From Chloroflexota bacterium (GTDB lineage: Bacteria > Chloroflexota > Limnocylindria > Limnocylindrales > CSP1-4): a stretch of DNA of 38,788 nt. Below the pieces are notes generated by a model. The model was not told where the DNA came from. It was given only the letters and a program-made list of their open reading frames with translations, and did not search any database. The position numbers and the translations under genes are program-made. The stretch is taken from contig PMBR01000089.1 in the NCBI GenBank assembly GCA_003152995.1, positions 109,893 through 148,680 of the forward strand, given 5' to 3'. Shown one piece after another: positions 2,125 through 11,972 of the stretch (position 1 is its first letter; the number at the start of each line of letters is the position of its first letter).

Positions 2125-5100
2125 TCAGGGAAGAGGCGAGGAGTCGAAGCCGCCGGCCGGGTCCGCCTCGGCGTCCTCCGGGTCGGTGCCGTCGCCGGCA
2201 GAGTCGAAGCCGCCGGCCGGGTCCGCCTCGGCGTCCTCCGGGTCGGTGCCGTCGCCGGCGGAGTCGAAGCCGTCTGCGTAGCCGCCCGAACCGGAGCCAC
2301 GTAGCAGGTCGAACCGGCGCCAGCCGACCAATACCCTGCGCTCCCAACCGACCCAGGCAGCAGCGCCGGCCAGGAGCACCGCGGCCGCGACAGCCGTCAG
2401 CGTATCGAGGCTGACGATCTTCACGGTCGCCGAGACCTGCTGGTTCGTGGCGAATTGGAAGCCGTACATCCAGGTCGGCGAGGTGACCGAGTAGATGCCC
2501 TGAATCGTGTTGGGCAACCAGAGGGCCGAGAGATCCGGGTACATGAACGCAAAGACCAGGGCGGCGATCGCGCACACGCCGAGCACGAACCGGCGCGGGT
2601 TTCGCGCCGTCAGGGCGAAATAGGACCCGAGGACGCCCACGGTCACCGGAAGGAACGTCAGCGAGTCGGACGGCAACGCCTCGTGGATGAGGACGTCGTT
2701 CGGGGCGGCGATCCCAAGCCACCAGATGAGCACGACCGCAATCCCCGTCGGCACGAAGGGCGCGACCATCCGGCCTCGATCCTCGAACCCCTGGGCCTGG
2801 CGACGCTCGGAGCGCCAAAGAGGAAGGGCCAGCGCCAGGAGCGCCGCGACCAGGACCGCCGCGATCAGGAAGACGCGAGTGGTGATGACCACATCGCCTG
2901 TAGCCGTCCCGCAGACCGTGTTCCCGAAGTACTCCGTGGTGTCAACTCGAGCGAGCCCGCATAGCCCCGGTTTCAGGAGCCAGAGAACGCCCGGCGTCAG
3001 GAGCGCAGCGGCTCCGGCGACCCTGGCAAGCAGCCACGTGCGGCGCGACGGTCCATGCCACACCTCCGCCAGGAGGTATGCCAGGCCCAACAGGAAGAAC
3101 GGCAGCGCGGTGTAGAAGTGGTATTGGAACGAGGCGCGATCGATGCGCGACCACGACAACCACTGCCAGAAGAACGCCGCGGCGATCAGGGCCAGGCCGA
3201 GGTTCCGTCGCTTGAAAGCCTGCCAGGAAATGAAGGCCATGCCGGCGATGGCCATCCACCACAGGGCCGGGTTGCCGCCGTCGTGGATCCACGAGAACAT
3301 CCCCGGCACGTCGCTTCCGCTCGCGAACCAGACCGGCTTGAGATCCAGAGGCCAGGCCCACCACGGCGACGACGCCTGATGCGGTAGGCGCAGCGTGTCG
3401 TGATAGTTGTACATGGCGATGGTCAGATCCCAGAGCGTTTGCCCGGTGTGGCCCGCCGGCCATGCGTCCAGGCACGCGCCACTCTGGGCGTCGGCGCTCC
3501 AGCAGGCTATCGCCGGCTCCGGGCCGGTCGCCGCCGTCTGCTGCTGCCAGGGCATCGACCAGGGTATGTACAGCACGATGTACACGAGGAACGGAAGGAC
3601 GGCGATGCAGAACGCCGTCCAGGCGGCCGGGACACCGAAGCCTGAGCCCAGCCGCAACCAGCCTTCGGGCGCAGGTGACGGACGCTCGGCAAACGCGGCC
3701 GGGCTGTCCGGCCGAGGTGCGACGGCCAGCGGCCCCAACCCAAAGCGGCCGGCGACCCAGAAAGCGGCGCCGGCCATGATGCCGACTCCGAGGCCCGCCG
3801 CACCCGCTTCAAGGGCAACCTTGAACAGTGGCTGGAGATTGAACGGGAGCCCGAACGGGACAAAAAGCAGAGCGAGGGCGAAAGGCCCCACCAGCCCCAC
3901 GACAGGGGGCGCGCCGATGGCGAAGTACAGCTCTTCTCGGGTCCATGCAACAGGGCGGTAAGCGTTGCCGGCTGCCGCCAGACACGTGACCGCAAGCATG
4001 ATCACAAAGAACGTGTAGTTGGGGGCGCCGTTGTCCAGCGATCCCGGCGACGCCAGAAGCGCTCCGGCCAGAAGCAGACCCGACACGGTGGCGGTGGCGG
4101 CTCCCACGAACACCTTGTCCGGCGTGAGACGGGTGCGCGCGGCCCAGGCGATGCCGACGCCGACGGCGAGCGCCGCAGCAGTCAACAAGAGAAGGCACAC
4201 AAATGCGTTGCCCGTACCGGGCTCGTAGTTCATCTCCGCGATGGCCATCCAGCCCAATACCCCGGTGCCGGCGGCCAGGCCCAGGATCGTCACCAGCCTT
4301 CCGAGCGCCGACCTGATCAGGATCAGGACGCCGATGCTGGCGATGGCGTAGAAGGCGACCCATTTGGAGACCAGGGCAAGTCCGAGGACCACCCCCAGGA
4401 GCGGCATGCCCAGCCAGAAGACGAAACGGTTCTTCCACACCTTTAGCCAGATGACGGCGAAGATCAGGTACGCCAGCAGCAGGAAGCCGCCCACATAGGT
4501 GTCGTTCATGGCGATGCGGGACTGGGCGAAGAGCATCCCGTCCACAAGCGAGAAGAAGGCGATGAGCAGGCCGACGCTTCGACGCCGGAACAGGATTCGC
4601 GCGAGCAGGTAGAGACAGACGGCCGTCAGCGCGCCGAACAGGACGCCGACGATCCGCCAGGAGAAGGCGAACTGTCCGACGTCGACCGAGGCGGTCGAAC
4701 CATCGGGCGCGAAGGCCAGCAAGGCCTCACGATCGGCGCCCGGCATCTGCGTGACGTCGTCGATGCCGCGCACCTGGACCGCGTTGTCGACTCCGATCGC
4801 CACGGGCGCGAAAGGCAGCCCGGCGTCGGAGAAGACGGCGTTGCCGTTTGTCTCGATCGCGTAGACGGTCCAGCCCGTGCCGCCGGGCGTTCGGCCCAGG
4901 ACCTGCGCGACCTTCGTGGCATCGTCGAAGACCACCTGGGTAACCTCGCCGGGCATCTTCTTGAGCGGCTGATCGCCCTCCAGGGAGACGACGTAGGGGG
5001 TCGACGAGGCGTTCAGGCCGACCAGCAACAAGGAGTCGCCGGCGGTGACGTAATAGCGATAGATGCCCTGGCGAATCGCGTCCGGGTTGAGGGCGATCGA

Positions 5101-6894
5101 AGTTGCCGGCGAGTCGGTGTCGATGGTGGAGTTGATCACAAGGTGGCGGGCGTCCAATACCCCGACCCCGTTCCGATAGGCCACCAGGACCTCCGGAGTC
5201 GAGTCGGCCAGGTCGACACCCGGCAGCGCGCCAGAGTCGATTTCGTCTCGAATGCTCGTGATCTGATCCGTCGTGAGCGATCCCAGAGGCAACGCCACCT
5301 CGAGCCCGCCGGTCGAACTCATGGACTCCTGAACCGGCGCGGCATCGATCCCCACCAGGTCGGCCAGTGTTTGGGCTTCGGCGATCGCGTCCTGGATGCG
5401 GCTCGGGTCTGCGGTGACGATGGTCGGGCCCGCGCCCAGCGCAGCAAAATCGGCCGCTCCGGGAACCGCGCCGCGGCCTACGATCGTGCCGCCACCGGCG
5501 GCCAGGTCGATCGAGACGACGCTGCCGCTCGCGTCCGAAACGAGGATGTACGGCGGGCTCCCCACGAAGATGTGAGCGATCGAGAGGCCCGTGCTCACGC
5601 TCAGTTGCACGGCCGCCTTGACTGAGTTGGTTGCACCCGCTCGCAGATCGTCGAGCGAGTTCGTGTCGATGCTGTAGACCTTCCCGTCCGACGTGCCGAC
5701 GTAGATCAGGCCGCTGATGCTCGGGCCGGAGAGGGCGGACGCGCCCGGGATCGAATACGTGTGCGACAGGGCCCGTGTCCCGAGGTCGTAGGCTCGGACT
5801 TCCGAGCCGGTCGCGACGAAGATCCGGTCGCCGTATAGGGTTCCGTAGTTGGTCTGGGCATTGGGATCGGGAGTGGTGGCGCCCGGCGAGTCGACCGTTC
5901 GCTGCTGGACCACGGCGGCCTTGACCGGCACATCCAGACTGCCCGCAGCGGTGACCTTGTCGTCGGAGAAGAGCGTGATCCCGCCGGCAATGGCGTACTT
6001 GGCCAGGTGCGGATGAGTCCACTCGAATATGTCGTGCTGGATGCCGTAGCGCCACTCCTGCAGGAACTCCGTCGCGGTCCGGGCGTGGTAGACCTCGTCG
6101 AAGTACATCTGGGTTGGCTCGCCGAGGCGGTAGACCCGCATCGAGAGGATGACGACGATCAGCGCCACCACGACCCAGATGTCCGTCCTGTCCAGACGGC
6201 CGCGGGGCTCAGAGTCCAGGGCCGCCGATCGATCGGGGAATGCCGGCGGCCGCGCGAGCCTGTGCCAGGCCCTCATCACCCAACCCGGGACATACCGTGG
6301 CTGCGTCAGCGGATCCGGGTCCTCGCCGCTCTCGGGCTGATCGGGCGCGGCTTCGTCTGCCACTTCGAGCTGCGCTTCGTCCGCCGCCGTGGCCCCAGCT
6401 TCGTGGGGCGCCGCTTCGCTGGGCGCCGCTTCGTCCGCCGCCGCTTGGTGGCCTGCCGGTTCGCGCCGGCGCTCCCGGAACAACTCCAGGACACCGACGG
6501 ATAGCACCGCCAGGCCTGCGGCGGCGAGCCAGAAGCCCGCTCCTCTGGCGGGCGGCCACGGCACGAGCTGGCGCGCGGCCAGGTCGGCCACGCGCAGCCC
6601 GTAGCCGGCCAGAGCTACGGCGAAGAGCAGGAGGTAGGCCGGCGGGCGGTCGACCGGGACCGGGCTTTCGGAGACCAACCGGAGAGTCACGAGCAACAGA
6701 CATGCGGCCGCAGCCAGGAACATCAGGAAGACCCGGCCGTCGGAGATGCCCTTGTCGGTCCAGACGGGCAGCTCGCCGGGGCCGCCGCCGATCTGCCACC
6801 ACTGCAGGAGCGAGGACGCAACCACGACGATGGCGCCGATCGAGACGATCCCGCGCCCTCTGGTCAGCGCTGCCCCACTCGGCTGCGCGGTCAT
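2125..6894 (-). CDS. PMT/GT39-type glycosyltransferase with beta-propeller inserted in the first external loop
   Basis: This 1589-residue polytopic membrane protein is most like protein O-mannosyltransferases (GT-C fold, polyprenyl-phosphate-sugar donors). Four N-terminal helices (about 15-140) precede an Ala/Glu/Pro linker (about 145-200). The PMT core begins near 237: an acidic pair in YFDEVYHARTA (Asp266, Glu267), then THPHLAKY (about 293-300), the family's HPPxGK-like motif. PMT sequence resumes only at FSWRIVGVLFG (about 743), followed by SRIAMNDTY and about a dozen more helices. The intervening ~400 residues (about 345-740) are beta-rich, with phrases such as LIYVGTSDGKVYSIDT that indicate a PQQ/WD-like propeller. 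The C-terminus carries the acidic 20-residue repeats. Its ATG overlaps the TGA of the anti-sigma-like gene by 4 nt, so translation is probably coupled. The role in protein or envelope glycosylation is inferred; acceptor and sugar are unknown. Confidence 0.88.
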   Translation of the reverse strand: MTAQPSGAALTRGRGIVSIGAIVVVASSLLQWWQIGGGPGELPVWTDKGISDGRVFLMFLAAAACLLLVTLRLVSESPVPVDRPPAYLLLFAVALAGYGLRVADLAARQLVPWPPARGAGFWLAAAGLAVLSVGVLELFRERRREPAGHQAAADEAAPSEAAPHEAGATAADEAQLEVADEAAPDQPESGEDPDPLTQPRYVPGWVMRAWHRLARPPAFPDRSAALDSEPRGRLDRTDIWVVVALIVVILSMRVYRLGEPTQMYFDEVYHARTATEFLQEWRYGIQHDIFEWTHPHLAKYAIAGGITLFSDDKVTAAGSLDVPVKAAVVQQRTVDSPGATTPDPNAQTNYGTLYGDRIFVATGSEVRAYDLGTRALSHTYSIPGASALSGPSISGLIYVGTSDGKVYSIDTNSLDDLRAGATNSVKAAVQLSVSTGLSIAHIFVGSPPYILVSDASGSVVSIDLAAGGGTIVGRGAVPGAADFAALGAGPTIVTADPSRIQDAIAEAQTLADLVGIDAAPVQESMSSTGGLEVALPLGSLTTDQITSIRDEIDSGALPGVDLADSTPEVLVAYRNGVGVLDARHLVINSTIDTDSPATSIALNPDAIRQGIYRYYVTAGDSLLLVGLNASSTPYVVSLEGDQPLKKMPGEVTQVVFDDATKVAQVLGRTPGGTGWTVYAIETNGNAVFSDAGLPFAPVAIGVDNAVQVRGIDDVTQMPGADREALLAFAPDGSTASVDVGQFAFSWRIVGVLFGALTAVCLYLLARILFRRRSVGLLIAFFSLVDGMLFAQSRIAMNDTYVGGFLLLAYLIFAVIWLKVWKNRFVFWLGMPLLGVVLGLALVSKWVAFYAIASIGVLILIRSALGRLVTILGLAAGTGVLGWMAIAEMNYEPGTGNAFVCLLLLTAAALAVGVGIAWAARTRLTPDKVFVGAATATVSGLLLAGALLASPGSLDNGAPNYTFFVIMLAVTCLAAAGNAYRPVAWTREELYFAIGAPPVVGLVGPFALALLFVPFGLPFNLQPLFKVALEAGAAGLGVGIMAGAAFWVAGRFGLGPLAVAPRPDSPAAFAERPSPAPEGWLRLGSGFGVPAAWTAFCIAVLPFLVYIVLYIPWSMPWQQQTAATGPEPAIACWSADAQSGACLDAWPAGHTGQTLWDLTIAMYNYHDTLRLPHQASSPWWAWPLDLKPVWFASGSDVPGMFSWIHDGGNPALWWMAIAGMAFISWQAFKRRNLGLALIAAAFFWQWLSWSRIDRASFQYHFYTALPFFLLGLAYLLAEVWHGPSRRTWLLARVAGAAALLTPGVLWLLKPGLCGLARVDTTEYFGNTVCGTATGDVVITTRVFLIAAVLVAALLALALPLWRSERRQAQGFEDRGRMVAPFVPTGIAVVLIWWLGIAAPNDVLIHEALPSDSLTFLPVTVGVLGSYFALTARNPRRFVLGVCAIAALVFAFMYPDLSALWLPNTIQGIYSVTSPTWMYGFQFATNQQVSATVKIVSLDTLTAVAAAVLLAGAAAWVGWERRVLVGWRRFDLLRGSGSGGYADGFDSAGDGTDPEDAEADPAGGFDSAGDGTDPEDAEADPAGGFDSSPLP
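2141..2272. repeat. 60-bp tandem repeat in the 3' end of the mannosyltransferase gene
   Basis: Two 60-bp copies (2141-2200 and 2201-2260), differing only at the last base, are followed by 12 bp of a third. In the minus-strand gene they encode an acidic 20-residue unit, GFDSAGDGTDPEDAEADPAG, twice. The near-perfect identity indicates recent slippage or duplication, and the unit length keeps the reading frame. Confidence 0.95.
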
Positions 6895-7355
6895 TGCCAG
6901 AGGCTGACCGTCCGGCCGCCTCCCGACGCCCAGCGCAAGCCGTCGCCCTGCTCCGGCGCGACCAGGACGGTCAGGACGCCCGTCGAGACGGTTGGTGGGG
7001 CCGATTTCGTCGGTTCGGCGGGCGAGGGCGAGAGCGACGGCGACGGCGAAGGCGTGAGGGTGATGGCCGGCAGCGGCGACGGCGTCACGGAAGACAAGTG
7101 GCTGCCATCCGGGAGCCGCTGAGCCAGAGGAGATCCGGCGACAATGGCCAGAGCCACGACTGCAACTGTTGCTGCGGCGACGGCCGCGACGGCGAGGGCG
7201 AGGCGAAGCCCCGTGGACGTCTTCGGTCGTCCGAACCGGCGCTGGTCGGCCAGCAACATCCCGAGTGGAGGTGCCGAGCCGACCGCGCAGTCAAGCTCGG
7301 CGGCGTGCGCCTTCATTCGATCGCGAAGGGTTTGCTCGAAATCGAATGCACTCAT
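6891..7355 (-). CDS. Anti-sigma-factor-like membrane protein
   Basis: This 154-residue protein has a charged N-terminal ~50 residues of the kind that bind ECF sigma factors. One transmembrane helix follows (about 51-75, Ala/Val-rich), then a Pro/Ser/Thr linker and a short external tail. It has no recognisable zinc-binding anti-sigma motif (HxxxCxxC), so the assignment rests mainly on context. Its ATG overlaps the sigma factor's TGA by 4 nt and its own TGA overlaps the mannosyltransferase ATG by 4 nt. The likely job is to hold the sigma factor at the membrane and release it on an envelope signal. This is inferred from gene order. Confidence 0.7.
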   Translation of the reverse strand: MSAFDFEQTLRDRMKAHAAELDCAVGSAPPLGMLLADQRRFGRPKTSTGLRLALAVAAVAAATVAVVALAIVAGSPLAQRLPDGSHLSSVTPSPLPAITLTPSPSPSLSPSPAEPTKSAPPTVSTGVLTVLVAPEQGDGLRWASGGGRTVSLWQ

Positions 7356-7909
7356 AGGTCGAGCACCTCCGGTCGCTTGCGCAGGGCGGCTACCCCTCGA
7401 GAAACGTTGGTTCGCACTCCCGCCGGCGAAAGCCCCATGACCCGGCCGATCTGGTCGTCGTCGAGGTCGAACAGGAACCGCAGCACGATCGCCTCATGCT
7501 GGCGAGGCGACAGGCAATCGCGAAGCTGGTCGAACCAGACGGCCGCCTCGACCCGGCCAAGAGAGTCGGCCGAGGCGGGCGGATCGTCGGTTCGAGACAA
7601 CGAATGCCAGGGCAGGACATGGCGCTTGTTGCGATCGATCACGATCCGGCGTGCGATCAGGAACAGCCAGGGGATCGGATCTGCGGCGGGACCGCGCCCG
7701 GCCTGCCAGGCTGCGAAGGCGCGACGGACCGTTTCGGCGGCCACGTCCTCGGCATCCTCGTGGTGTCTGACCAACACCCAGGCGTACCGGCAGAGCCGCG
7801 GCCACGCGGCAACGTAGATCTCCTCGAAGGCGGCGTCGGAATCCAGCGTCCTGGCTGGACTGGCTTCTGCCACCCTCAAGATCAAACCCCCTGCGAATGC
7901 GCTTGCCAC
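7352..7909 (-). CDS. ECF RNA polymerase sigma factor (operon leader)
   Basis: The protein has up to 185 residues. Sigma-70 region 2 spans about 30-95 (RLCRYAWVLVRHHEDAEDVAAETV) and region 4 about 120-175 (LSPRQHEAIVLRFLFDLDDDQIGRVMGLSPAGV), with a short linker and no regions 1 or 3, as in ECF factors. The track start is GTG 7909, which lacks a good ribosome-binding site. TTG at 7879, 7 nt after GCAGGGGG, is a better-supported start and would remove ten residues without touching region 2. It is the first gene of a three-gene operon with 4-nt overlaps and is divergent from a second ECF gene at 8.1 kb. Confidence 0.92.
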   Translation of the reverse strand: MASAFAGGLILRVAEASPARTLDSDAAFEEIYVAAWPRLCRYAWVLVRHHEDAEDVAAETVRRAFAAWQAGRGPAADPIPWLFLIARRIVIDRNKRHVLPWHSLSRTDDPPASADSLGRVEAAVWFDQLRDCLSPRQHEAIVLRFLFDLDDDQIGRVMGLSPAGVRTNVSRGVAALRKRPEVLDL

Positions 7910-8030
7910 ACTGAGGATAACGACACGGCACCACGATTTGTGTCATGCCGGTCGCGGCGGCGGCACGATCGCGAGCCCGGTCGCCGGATCGTCTCTCGGC
8001 CGGCCTTGGGCTTGCAGTTCGGGCGAAGAT

Positions 8031-8058
8031 TGAACCCTCGCGGCAGCGCCTGCGTCAG
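8031..8058 (+). promoter_or_regulatory. Candidate ECF-type promoter (TGAACC-N16-CGTCAG)
   Basis: TGAACC at 8031-8036 and CGTCAG at 8053-8058 are separated by 16 bp. Many ECF sigma factors read a -35 containing GAAC and a -10 containing CGTC, so this pair directly upstream of an ECF gene suggests autoregulation. It is a pattern match by eye; the high GC content makes CGTC common, so confidence is limited. Confidence 0.4.
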
Positions 8059-8098
8059 ATCAGGCATGATCAGCGCGACAGCGAGGGGAGAGAGCCGC

Positions 8099-8653
8099 TT
8101 GGCGAGACCGATACAGGGGGCCGAGGCGAGGGAACGCGCGCGAGCGATCGCCTTCACGCGCCTGACGGCCGATCGCCTGGCGTCCTGCTACCGATTGGCC
8201 ACGGTCATTCTGGGCGATCCGATCGAGGCCGAAGACGCCACGCACGACGCCGCCGTTCGGGCCTGGGAACGCTGGGGCTCGCTCCGCGATCCGGACCGGT
8301 TCGATGCCTGGTTCGGGCGGATTCTCGTCAACGAATGCCGCGATCGCCTGCGAAGGCGCCGGACGAGACCGCCTGCGGCAGAACTCACAGAGCGCTACCA
8401 CGCCGGCCGGAGACTCGGCGACGGCACTCAAGCGATCGCCGAACGGCAGGCCCTCGCCCAGGCCATCGCCGAGCTCGAACCGGACCACCGTATCGCGATC
8501 GTTCTGCACTACTACCTCGAGCTCAGCGCGGAGCAGATCGCCGAACGGACGGGCGCGCGCGTGGGGACGGTCAAGTCGCGCCTCCACTATGGCCTCAAGG
8601 CGCTGCGGGCCGCGCAAGACGCATCCGCCCGGACCGAAGGAGGACGGCGTTGA
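8099..8653 (+). CDS. ECF RNA polymerase sigma factor, second module
   Basis: This 184-residue sigma-70 family protein has region 2 in ATVILGDPIEAEDATHDAAVRAWERW and region 4 in ELEPDHRIAIVLHYYLELSAEQIAERTGARVGTVKSRL; the YY-L-LSxEQIAxxxG-GTVKSRL pattern is classic for ECF factors. TTG 8099 is preferred because AGGGGAG lies 8 nt upstream. An in-frame ATG at 8066 has no clear ribosome-binding site and would add 11 residues, though a transcript starting at the candidate promoter could be read from it almost leaderless. The last codons overlap the start of the kelch protein (TTGA), so the two are a coupled pair. Confidence 0.93.
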   Translation: MARPIQGAEARERARAIAFTRLTADRLASCYRLATVILGDPIEAEDATHDAAVRAWERWGSLRDPDRFDAWFGRILVNECRDRLRRRRTRPPAAELTERYHAGRRLGDGTQAIAERQALAQAIAELEPDHRIAIVLHYYLELSAEQIAERTGARVGTVKSRLHYGLKALRAAQDASARTEGGRR

Positions 8654-10119
8654 GCGACGAGAGACTCGACCGAGAGCTGGGCGAGATCCTCCGGGCCGCC
8701 GCCGATGTCGAGCTGCCCGCACGGCTGGCCGACCGGGTTGCGTCCATCCCGAGCCGCCGGTCTCAGAGTGCCGCGAGCCGCGGGGCGATCGGCGGGGCTC
8801 GCACCCGGCTGCCGATCGGATCGATGGCGCTGGTCGGGGTCGTCATTCTGGCTCTGGTTTGGGGCGTGCCGCGGCTTGCCCCCGGCTTTGCGCCTTTCGG
8901 AGCGGCTACGGCCTGCGGTGCCGGACCTACCCCTCGGCCGCCTGTGACTGTGAAGAGCGGGCCGACTCCGACGACATTGCCCGCAACGCCCAGCCCGACT
9001 GGTCCAGTGGGACCGACTCCGACCCAGGCGCCCGGCTATTTCGAGCCGGCAGGTTCCATGACGACTTCGCGAGCCGGCGCAACGGCCACGCTCTTGCTGG
9101 ACGGCCGCGTCTTGATTGTCGGTGGCAGCAGTGGCGCCGGGTACCCGACGGCATCGGCCGAGCTCTACGACCCCGAGACCTGCTCCTTCAGCGCCACGGG
9201 ATCGATGCCGGCCCCGCGCGCCAACTACACAGCCACACCGCTGACGGACGGCCGGGTGCTGATCGCCGGCGGCTTCGATGGCTTCACCAACAGCCTGGCC
9301 ACTGACTTGCTATACGACCCCACCACGGGTGCATTCCGCGCTACGGGATCCATGACCTCGCCACGTTCCAACCCCTCTGCCACGCTGTTGGGCGACGGCC
9401 GGGTCCTCATCGCGGGCGGGGAGGGCGTATCGCCCAACCATGAGGTCGACCTCGCCTCGGCCGAGATCTACGATCCGAAGACGGGCCGGTTCACTCCCAC
9501 CGGATCGATGGGAACCGCGCGAGTTGGTGCCGCCACCGCTCCTCTGCCGGGCGGCAAGATCCTCTTCGTCGGCGGTGTGTCGACTGCCTGCACCGCTGCC
9601 GGTTGTGACGATCGGCCGGCTTCCGCGGCCGAGGTGTACGACCCGGCCACAGGCACCTTCAGCCCGACCGGCTCACTCCTCGCCGGATGGGCATCCTCCG
9701 CGACGGCACTAAAGGACGGTCGGGTCCTCGTCCTTGGCGCGATCAGAAACCTGCCCATCCCCGTTCTGCCGATCATGCGCCCGCAGGCGGAGCTGTACGA
9801 CCCGAAGACCGGCAAGTTCACGATGACGGGCGGACATCAGACGCCCGTTGGGATGAACGCGACGTTGTTGCCGGACGGGCGTGTGCTTGTTCTGGGGAGC
9901 TTCGATGCCGCCAACGGCGGCGACACCGTCAGTGCAGCCGTGCTCTACGACCCCACGACCGGCACCTTCGCCCCAACCGGATCGATGGCCGTCGCGCGCT
10001 CAGGCCCCACCGTGACGCTGCTCCGCGACGGCCGGGTGCTCGTCGCCGGCGGAGCCGGGCCCCGTGGTGGGGACGTGCCGGGTCCCCCCCTCGACTCGGC
10101 CGAGCTGTTCGTGCCGTAG
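8650..10119 (+). CDS. Membrane anti-sigma-like protein with seven-bladed kelch propeller
   Basis: This is a 489-residue protein. TTG 8650 is chosen: it lies behind AAGGAGG, it overlaps the sigma factor stop by 4 nt, and the ORF-track start at 7945 would run through the sigma gene. Residues 1-50 are charged and resemble a cytoplasmic anti-sigma segment (DERLDRELGEILRAAADVELP). A transmembrane helix follows (about 56-76), then a Pro/Thr linker (about 95-130). The external part consists of seven kelch-type units, each with a GS-M...R...T-LLDGRVLIAGG core closed by AELYDP-TG-F. The design suggests that ligand binding or folding state outside the cell controls sigma release. The absence of a known anti-sigma zinc motif leaves that as inference. 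Confidence 0.85.
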   Translation: MSDERLDRELGEILRAAADVELPARLADRVASIPSRRSQSAASRGAIGGARTRLPIGSMALVGVVILALVWGVPRLAPGFAPFGAATACGAGPTPRPPVTVKSGPTPTTLPATPSPTGPVGPTPTQAPGYFEPAGSMTTSRAGATATLLLDGRVLIVGGSSGAGYPTASAELYDPETCSFSATGSMPAPRANYTATPLTDGRVLIAGGFDGFTNSLATDLLYDPTTGAFRATGSMTSPRSNPSATLLGDGRVLIAGGEGVSPNHEVDLASAEIYDPKTGRFTPTGSMGTARVGAATAPLPGGKILFVGGVSTACTAAGCDDRPASAAEVYDPATGTFSPTGSLLAGWASSATALKDGRVLVLGAIRNLPIPVLPIMRPQAELYDPKTGKFTMTGGHQTPVGMNATLLPDGRVLVLGSFDAANGGDTVSAAVLYDPTTGTFAPTGSMAVARSGPTVTLLRDGRVLVAGGAGPRGGDVPGPPLDSAELFVP

Positions 10120-10295
10120 ATCCCGACCTCAGGCGAGGGCGCCACGCCGCCTCGGGCCTGGCGAATTCGCCTCGATCCGCGTCATGGGACTGGATCTTGG
10201 AGTCGCCACTCCCACTGTATCGTGTAGTGCCTTGGTGTTAGATCGTGACTCCCAGGAAGGGGAGGTCTGGCGCCACTCGCCCGGGGGCAATGCCC

Positions 10296-11972
10296 ATGTC
10301 GCGTTCGTATCGTGTCTTTGGAATCCTTCTGCTGGTCGTGGCCAGCCTGCTGGTTGCCGCATCGCCGGCAGCCGCCTCGACGGGCGCCATAGGCAAGGAC
10401 TTCACCCTGCCTGCCGTCACCAGGACCACCTACTCGATCTCGGGGACGGTCCGCGTCAACTCGACGTCGGCCGCCGTGTCGGGCGTCGAGGTGTCCGCGG
10501 CGAGCACGAGCGCCTCTGGACCGTTCACTTACGGCTCGGCACTCACGAAGGCGAGCGGCCTATACACGATCAGTAGCCTGCTGCCCGGCTCGTATACCCT
10601 CCGGTTCGACCCACCGAGGACGACCAACCTGCAGCACGGCTATCGAACCGCCACCGCGCCGACCTACTTCAGCGCCAAGACACCGGTGGTCGTGACAATC
10701 ACAACTGCTTCGCTCACCGGTAAGGACATCCGGCTGCTGCACGGCTTCGAGATCTCCGGGAAGGCGACCCGATCGAACGGGACGACGGCCATCCCGATGC
10801 TCCCGGTCAACGCTGACGGCGCGAGCGGCAGCGACGGCACGACGACCGACTCCGCGGGCAACTACACCCTGATGGGTCTGTCGCCGGGTTCGTACGAGGT
10901 CAGCTTCGGGCACGACCCCACGGCCAGCAACCAGACCGGATGCTGGTATTCGGCCGTCGCGTCCAAGTTCTCTGCCACCTGCGTCTCCCACACGGCGGTC
11001 GCCATCAGCGCGGCCAACGTGACCGGGATCAGCCCCAAGATCCCCAACGGCCTCGAGATCACCGGCTACCTCAAGACGCGCGACGCGTCACCGCTGCCGG
11101 TCGCCGACGCAGCCGTCTTCGCGAATGGGCCCGAGCACGAATGGGCCTATAGCGACGCCACGGGCAAGTACACCATCACGGGCCTGAACCCGGGCTCGTA
11201 CCAGATCCTGGCCAATGGTCCCTACAACACGCGGTTCGTCAGCGGCTACTACAACGCCACCGGGCCCTACTTCTGGGGCAGGCTGACGGCATGGGCATCG
11301 CCTGTGACCATCTCCTCTGCAATCACGACCCTGCCGATCATCAAGCCGCCGTCCGGATACTTCATCAAGGGCAAGATCACCAACATCTCCGGCACCGGGC
11401 TCAGTTCCGTCTTCGTCGAGTCCTTGGGCGGGGCGGGCTCGCCATACGAGAACCCCGGCAACTTCACCGACTCCTCGGGCAACTACTCCATCGGACCGCT
11501 GTCGGCCAACCAGTCGTACAAGATCCACGCGATCACTACTTACTCCTCCGACCCGTCCGTCATGCCGGGCTGGTATCTCAGCAGCCCGCCTAACAACTTC
11601 ACCGCGGCCGCGTCGTCGGCGCTCTCGCTCCTGATGACCGGCGACAAGAACGCGATCAACATGCGCCTCCCTGTGGGCGCCGCGATCTCAGGAACCGTGA
11701 CGATCACCGGGGGCGGCGCATGTGGCAACTGCACCGTCTACGCGTTCGACGCCACGGGAGTCCAGGTCGAGCAGACATCAACCACGCTATCCGGCGCGTA
11801 CACCCTGTCCGGTCTCCCGGCCGGCAGCTACCGCGTAGAAGCGTGGTCGATGGATCCGGCGATCGACGCAACGCACGTTCGAATCATCACCGAAGGCTTC
11901 TACAAGTCCGGGGCTGCCCCCCACTTCAGCGCCACGCTGGCGGGCGCCACGGCGATCGCGGTCACGCCATAG
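10296..11972 (+). CDS. Secreted protein with five carboxypeptidase-regulatory-like repeats
   Basis: This 558-residue exported protein has a signal peptide (MSRSYRVFGILLLVVASLLVAASPAAA) and then five CarboxypepD_reg/SdrD-B-like beta-sandwich repeats. Each opens with ISGTV or similar and closes with DxxGxYTxxGLxPGSYxxxF. The start is ATG 10296, which has GGGGG 8 nt upstream and gives a clean signal peptide; ATG 10290 and the track's GTG 10245 are less likely. No anchor or enzymatic domain is visible. Such repeats usually serve as spacers or adhesin modules. It follows the kelch/ECF pair by 176 bp and could be a target of it, but no matching promoter was found. Confidence 0.85.
   Translation: MSRSYRVFGILLLVVASLLVAASPAAASTGAIGKDFTLPAVTRTTYSISGTVRVNSTSAAVSGVEVSAASTSASGPFTYGSALTKASGLYTISSLLPGSYTLRFDPPRTTNLQHGYRTATAPTYFSAKTPVVVTITTASLTGKDIRLLHGFEISGKATRSNGTTAIPMLPVNADGASGSDGTTTDSAGNYTLMGLSPGSYEVSFGHDPTASNQTGCWYSAVASKFSATCVSHTAVAISAANVTGISPKIPNGLEITGYLKTRDASPLPVADAAVFANGPEHEWAYSDATGKYTITGLNPGSYQILANGPYNTRFVSGYYNATGPYFWGRLTAWASPVTISSAITTLPIIKPPSGYFIKGKITNISGTGLSSVFVESLGGAGSPYENPGNFTDSSGNYSIGPLSANQSYKIHAITTYSSDPSVMPGWYLSSPPNNFTAAASSALSLLMTGDKNAINMRLPVGAAISGTVTITGGGACGNCTVYAFDATGVQVEQTSTTLSGAYTLSGLPAGSYRVEAWSMDPAIDATHVRIITEGFYKSGAAPHFSATLAGATAIAVTP

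Follow-up and report, generated by a model that had tools for sequence, protein, structure and literature searches.

What is the role of the roughly 430 residues that separate the catalytic motif of a bacterial membrane glycosyltransferase from its second transmembrane helix (TM2)? The question is raised by one gene in the window, by which we mean the whole stretch of Chloroflexota DNA analysed here (38,788 nucleotides; Table 1). A sequence-only reading of the window had proposed that the gene encodes an enzyme of the protein O-mannosyltransferase (PMT) type with a beta-propeller in its first external loop. It had numbered the landmarks on either side correctly (D266/E267, HPHLAK at 294-299 and FAFSWRIVG at 742-750), and D266/E267 and HPHLAK do lie about 430 residues away from TM2 (742-769).

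Table 1 Features of the PMT-type gene and its operon, in window coordinates
Feature	Position	Strand	Evidence
PMT/GT39-type gene	2125..6894	minus	one ORF, 1589 aa; Pfam match to PMT, and to PMT_4TMC below its cut-off
N-terminal hydrophobic domain, residues 1-150, replacing the second GT-C domain of most relatives	6445..6894	minus	homologous stretches elsewhere
TM1, residues 236-254	6133..6189	minus	AF2 model
Catalytic DE motif, D266/E267	6094..6099	minus	invariant in 79 sequences; role from PMC12705809
HPHLAK, residues 294-299, where the second juxtamembrane helix begins	5998..6015	minus	motif position and AF2 model
Predicted beta-propeller in external loop 1, residues about 312-740	4675..5961	minus	AF2, Foldseek, 78/78 homologues
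Module within the propeller, residues 491-567, akin to the dimerisation domain of class B penicillin-binding proteins	5194..5424	minus	4ovd, hhalign
TM2, residues 742-769 (FAFSWRIVGVLFG...)	4588..4671	minus	AF2 model; Pfam PMT match starts here
PMT_4TMC region, residues 1153-1293, with conserved SPWWAWP and R-x-x-FQYH segments	3016..3438	minus	Pfam; consensus and invariant columns
Small protein, probable anti-sigma factor, ATGA overlap with the PMT start	6891..7355	minus	no Pfam match; homologues at four other loci
ECF-type sigma factor	7352..7909	minus	Sigma70_r2 and Sigma70_r4_2; homologues at four other loci

The window protein exceeds the curated cut-off of the Pfam PMT family (PF02366; 46.1 bits against 22.7, E=6e-12), with a best-matching stretch, residues 743-861, that starts at profile position 82 and thus only after the insert. 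Its match to PMT_4TMC (E=1.4e-6) scores 28.4 bits, short of the cut-off of 32.4, which four relatives (L078, L050, L052 and L131) exceed. For the NCBIfam equivalog NF058602 (protein O-mannosyltransferase) it scores 27.2 bits against a cut-off of 800. As an insert-free outgroup protein, L162, also falls below that cut-off (108 bits), NF058602 is a narrow model, and we therefore file the enzyme as PMT-type, at the level of the family, rather than as an equivalog of the characterised bacterial Pmt. A profile of the whole domain (A2) returned no PDB matches at E 1e-9, so the link to yeast Pmt1 is drawn through the insert-free sister proteins, which match Pmt1 in a PDB search. The protein, a membrane enzyme, is likely to attach sugar to secreted proteins.

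In the AF2 model of residues 230-1360, made from 79 sequences (pLDDT 86.7, pTM 0.87), TM1 is followed by two juxtamembrane helices (267-283 and 296-309), by strands from 314 to 738, and then by TM2 and the remaining membrane core, which places D266/E267 between TM1 and TM2. Region 314-738 is composed mostly of strands, interrupted by a small helical module (503-553) and by a handful of short helices elsewhere; modelled in isolation, the insert shows about 30 strands (pLDDT 93.5, pTM 0.92). For both models, the best Foldseek hits in the PDB were WD40-type propellers (G-beta, alpha-/beta'-COP, LIS1 and PRL1), with E down to 1.5e-11 and TM-scores by target of up to 0.74. Almost all of the best hits listed for the insert are propellers, with BamB further down. 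The insert is thus predicted to be a beta-propeller, and the number of strands together with the nature of the Foldseek hits suggests that it probably has seven blades. Structure prediction, for residues 230-1360 and for the insert alone, therefore bears out the proposal that the first external loop of a PMT-type enzyme contains a propeller. Of the span originally proposed for it, 4675-5862, the start at 4675 stands, and the other edge falls about 100 bases short of our best estimate (4675-5961).

No Pfam or NCBIfam family reached its cut-off on the insert. The best was PQQ_2 (E 0.026), at 14.6 bits in the window protein against a cut-off of 27.6, and the named PQQ_2 and WD40 families gave only weak matches, in 16 of the 79 members. 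Identity with the MIR domain was rejected because Pfam found no MIR match in the window protein or the other members; the insert also sits in loop 1 and has a predicted propeller fold. The earlier expectation that it would be neither MIR nor another named PMT domain was therefore sound. We also rejected a shared origin with the Kelch propeller of the neighbouring gene (8650-10119), against which hhalign gave E 0.25. Profile matches in the PDB to designed 'Cake' propellers and armadillo proteins were set aside, being short motif matches added up across identical repeats, and not taken as evidence of homology. The propeller core usually measures about 340-370 residues. In the tandem-type proteins L002/L035 (G000 contig C122), L023 and L065 it measures 433-439, and these additional 70-90 or so residues may be one more blade or a further insertion.

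A longer stretch between propeller strands marks a module site in 60 of the 79 members, among them one (L054) in which it is not clearly the same module; the other 19 are without it, and their propeller core is about as large. The module profile matched the class B penicillin-binding protein (PBP) 4ovd in the PDB over one single stretch of about 72 residues (E 4e-8), with weaker matches to 4ye5 and 7rcz. It also aligned with two Chloroflexota PBPs (hhalign E 5e-12 and 7e-9), one of them confirmed by Pfam (PBP_dimer and Transpeptidase). Together, these matches indicate that the propeller harbours a fragment akin to the PBP dimerisation domain, a homology that is remote and partial since single members gave no direct Pfam match to PBP_dimer. 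By sequence comparison, the module is an optional element of about 65 residues and is homologous to part of that domain. It differs from class B PBPs in being a domain fragment only, set within a propeller and without a transpeptidase, and it may serve as an optional protein-interaction surface. A long Pro/Thr/Ser-rich link precedes it in several proteins of the same genus (L019, L020, L064 and L065) and is a plausible target of O-mannosylation, that is, of self-modification. In L047, L099, L100 and L105, an apparent helical hairpin extends the sub-insert to about 114 residues.

To assess how widely the insert is conserved, we examined its distribution. It occupies the same site in all 78 non-redundant homologues, which come from independent genomes. 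Among 79 non-redundant full-length sequences, the window protein included, HPHLAK and TM2 lie 316-554 residues apart, and none is without an insert. The window protein was matched in 60 of 61 near genomes, and families f3 and f4 supplied further members with the insert, the f3 propeller aligning with the propeller profile at hhalign E 6e-7. Homologues with named records are Chloroflexota, and as they include CSP1-4 and a Ca. Limnocylindrales bacterium, we take the class to be Ca. Limnocylindria, whose bacteria live in soil and freshwater. A pattern scan, the only search to reach beyond Chloroflexota, found 172 relatives, of which the best 77 distinct loci all belong to Chloroflexota. In 300 genomes of the phylum, class members matched in long frames, and the matches listed outside the class were mostly about 470-760 aa, with a maximum of 980.

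The insert is absent from all eight PMTs that we read from outside the class, which represent six other Chloroflexota families. In three of these (L162, L163 and L166), HPPLGK or HPALAK is followed by FGWR within about 25 residues. The eight insert-free proteins thus fix the insertion site: it lies in external loop 1, after the second juxtamembrane helix and before TM2. Searched alone, the propeller profile retrieved essentially only PMTs of Ca. Limnocylindria, plus a few weak hits elsewhere. The three of these hits that we read (with G158, G237, G299 and G304 left out) comprised two class B PBPs, reached through the sub-insert, and one separate propeller protein. Every full-length member read, from five families, retains the insert, and insert-free sisters occur in the same phylum. 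Judged from these sequences, the insert is a fixed feature of the enzyme throughout Ca. Limnocylindria and no one-off. A phage or viral origin was rejected as viral contigs contained no relatives. Misassembly or chance was rejected given the same insert in all 78 homologues from independent genomes and a bias in the codon positions at which it differs.

Relative to the closest long homologue, codon positions 1, 2 and 3 differ by 30, 20 and 44% within the insert. Identity among close relatives is 51-63% for the insert, compared with 65-74% for the core. The propeller nonetheless has 17 columns with 90% or more identity, and an EPHG/ETHG-type segment is recognisable from family f1 to f3 and f5. 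This pattern indicates purifying selection on the insert, yet faster change than in the core, as a binding domain would show.

Most relatives have about 500 extra N-terminal residues that constitute a second GT-C enzyme, GT87- or ALG6_ALG8-like; in family f4 the N-terminal domain matches PMT_2. One such tandem paralogue with two GT-C domains is encoded in the genome of the window itself (contig C122). Homologues of about 140 residues of the hydrophobic domain that takes this place in the window protein are found apart from PMT in the same genome and in most genomes of the genus. The PMT gene forms an operon with the ECF sigma factor and the small protein, which had no Pfam match and is probably an anti-sigma factor. 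Homologues of the small protein and the sigma factor occur at four other loci (L067, L071, L130 and L131), three of which have short-type PMTs. As the window protein pairs with L071 in the core tree (support 100/100), with the long-type L006 adjoining (89/94), short types may derive from long ones. Neighbourhood clusters had non-gene frames mixed in, and only those of GT2, sigma and small proteins were used; a GT2 resembling polyprenyl-phosphate sugar synthases, by a similarity below curated cut-offs, lies nearby in 27 of 77 loci. Two sigma-factor genes in 7352-10119 of the window are adjacent and divergently oriented. Behind the one on the plus strand (8108-8653) comes a gene (8650-10119) whose product joins a probable membrane anchor, anti-sigma-like by position, to a Kelch propeller. 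Repeated CarboxypepD_reg and SdrD_B-like domains are encoded at 10245-11972, likely as part of a surface protein that is a candidate acceptor for the PMT-type enzyme.

Several known enzymes invite comparison. Mycobacterium tuberculosis PMT shares the GT-C core, the DE motif between TM1 and TM2, the family match and the lack of MIR, but has a WW-like segment in loop 4 and no large soluble domain, whereas the enzyme described here has a propeller of about 430 residues in loop 1 (PMC12331936); most Limnocylindria relatives differ further by their second GT-C domain. Yeast Pmt1-Pmt2 (6P25) and Pmt4 have the same core and likewise add a soluble beta domain outside the membrane. The eukaryotic MIR domain has a beta-trefoil fold, sits in loop 4 (TM7-TM8) and has been associated with dimers and with the handling of substrates, in contrast to a predicted propeller in loop 1 (TM1-TM2). 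The nearest outgroup, the insert-free L162, L163 and L166, can be aligned on both flanks of the insertion site; in L162, a protein of 449 residues, the motif runs straight into TM2. EmbC arabinosyltransferase is likewise a membrane enzyme of the GT-C type to which a soluble binding domain has been added, although it belongs to another family, carries a C-terminal carbohydrate-binding module and acts on a glycan acceptor (PMC3044687). Full-text literature searches for a PMT with a propeller returned nothing relevant, in agreement with the initial impression that none had been described. The enzyme family is known, but the insert is an undescribed domain in an undescribed position, and it is fixed throughout one class.

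The computed evidence supports the gain of a loop-1 propeller by a GT-C-fold enzyme of the GT39/PMT type in the Ca. Limnocylindria lineage, which has kept it since. With a sugar-loaded polyprenyl-phosphate as donor, the enzyme would place mannose or a different hexose on Ser or Thr of proteins that are being exported from the cytoplasm. Known PMTs have their catalytic DE motif in the TM1-TM2 loop, and what has been added to loop 4, MIR in eukaryotes and the WW-like segment in mycobacteria, has been tied to the handling of substrates (PMC12331936, PMC12705809, PMC7759382); loops 1, 4 and 5 of the mycobacterial enzyme form a proposed acceptor groove (PMC12331936). Hung outside the membrane from the loop of the catalytic Asp, the propeller would adjoin this groove and, judging from its attachment, face it. 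Because it would lie on the groove's side of the membrane, tethered beside it, we favour, at a probability of roughly 45%, a role in docking and selecting acceptors, comparable to that of MIR or the WW-like segment. Consistent with such a role are the invariant motifs, the insert's place in the loop that also bears the catalytic one, the confidently predicted propeller fold, the retention of the insert in full-length members read from five families and the GT2 near 27 of 77 loci. Against it stand the NF058602 score (27 of 800 bits) and the many roles that propellers serve, and the second GT-C fusion of most relatives fits scaffolding or glycan extension equally.

Scaffolding is the main rival, if on balance an unlikely one. 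The propeller would then make no contact with acceptors and would anchor the enzyme to the second GT-C domain, to a secretion channel or, through the PBP-like module, to cell-wall synthesis proteins. Propellers are often assembly platforms, as with the best-matching folds G-beta, COP and LIS1 and, further down, BamB; the tandem fusion in relatives and the module in 60 of the 79 members point the same way. Yet the window copy has no second GT-C domain and 19 members have no module, all with the propeller retained, and attachment to the catalytic loop would be unusual for a mere tether. The same fusion to GT87- or ALG6_ALG8-like domains, with EmbC as a precedent for GT-C enzymes with soluble carbohydrate-binding domains (PMC3044687), would also suit an acceptor other than protein. 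The two GT-C units would then build or decorate a cell-envelope glycan or lipid, with the polymer bound by the propeller. We consider this improbable given the Pfam PMT and PMT_4TMC matches, the retained DE motif and the match of insert-free sisters to yeast Pmt1. That the propeller entered once and persists as a tolerated passenger with no specific role could account for its rapid divergence and the varying sub-insert lengths, but is hardly credible given the absence of loss in full-length members read from five families, the 17 conserved columns, the EPHG/ETHG-type segment common to f1, f3 and f5 and the codon-position bias.

Acceptor docking thus remains our preferred reading. A far more speculative extension is that the class possesses an undescribed O-mannosylation machine: a tandem of GT-C units, the second bearing on its catalytic loop a propeller and a PBP interaction module that direct glycosylation towards particular substrates, perhaps where the wall is growing, the window protein being a sigma-linked short form. 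The bacterial PMTs studied so far have no large soluble domain. Here the catalytic loop bears a large, separable and confidently predicted propeller, and sister enzymes of the same phylum that lack it are ready controls, so that how PMTs choose their acceptors becomes testable by removing or grafting one domain. Collectively, our results reveal that the PMT core can take a soluble domain at another loop, and with another predicted fold, than the eukaryotic MIR, and they suggest a new way of choosing proteins for sugar-coating.
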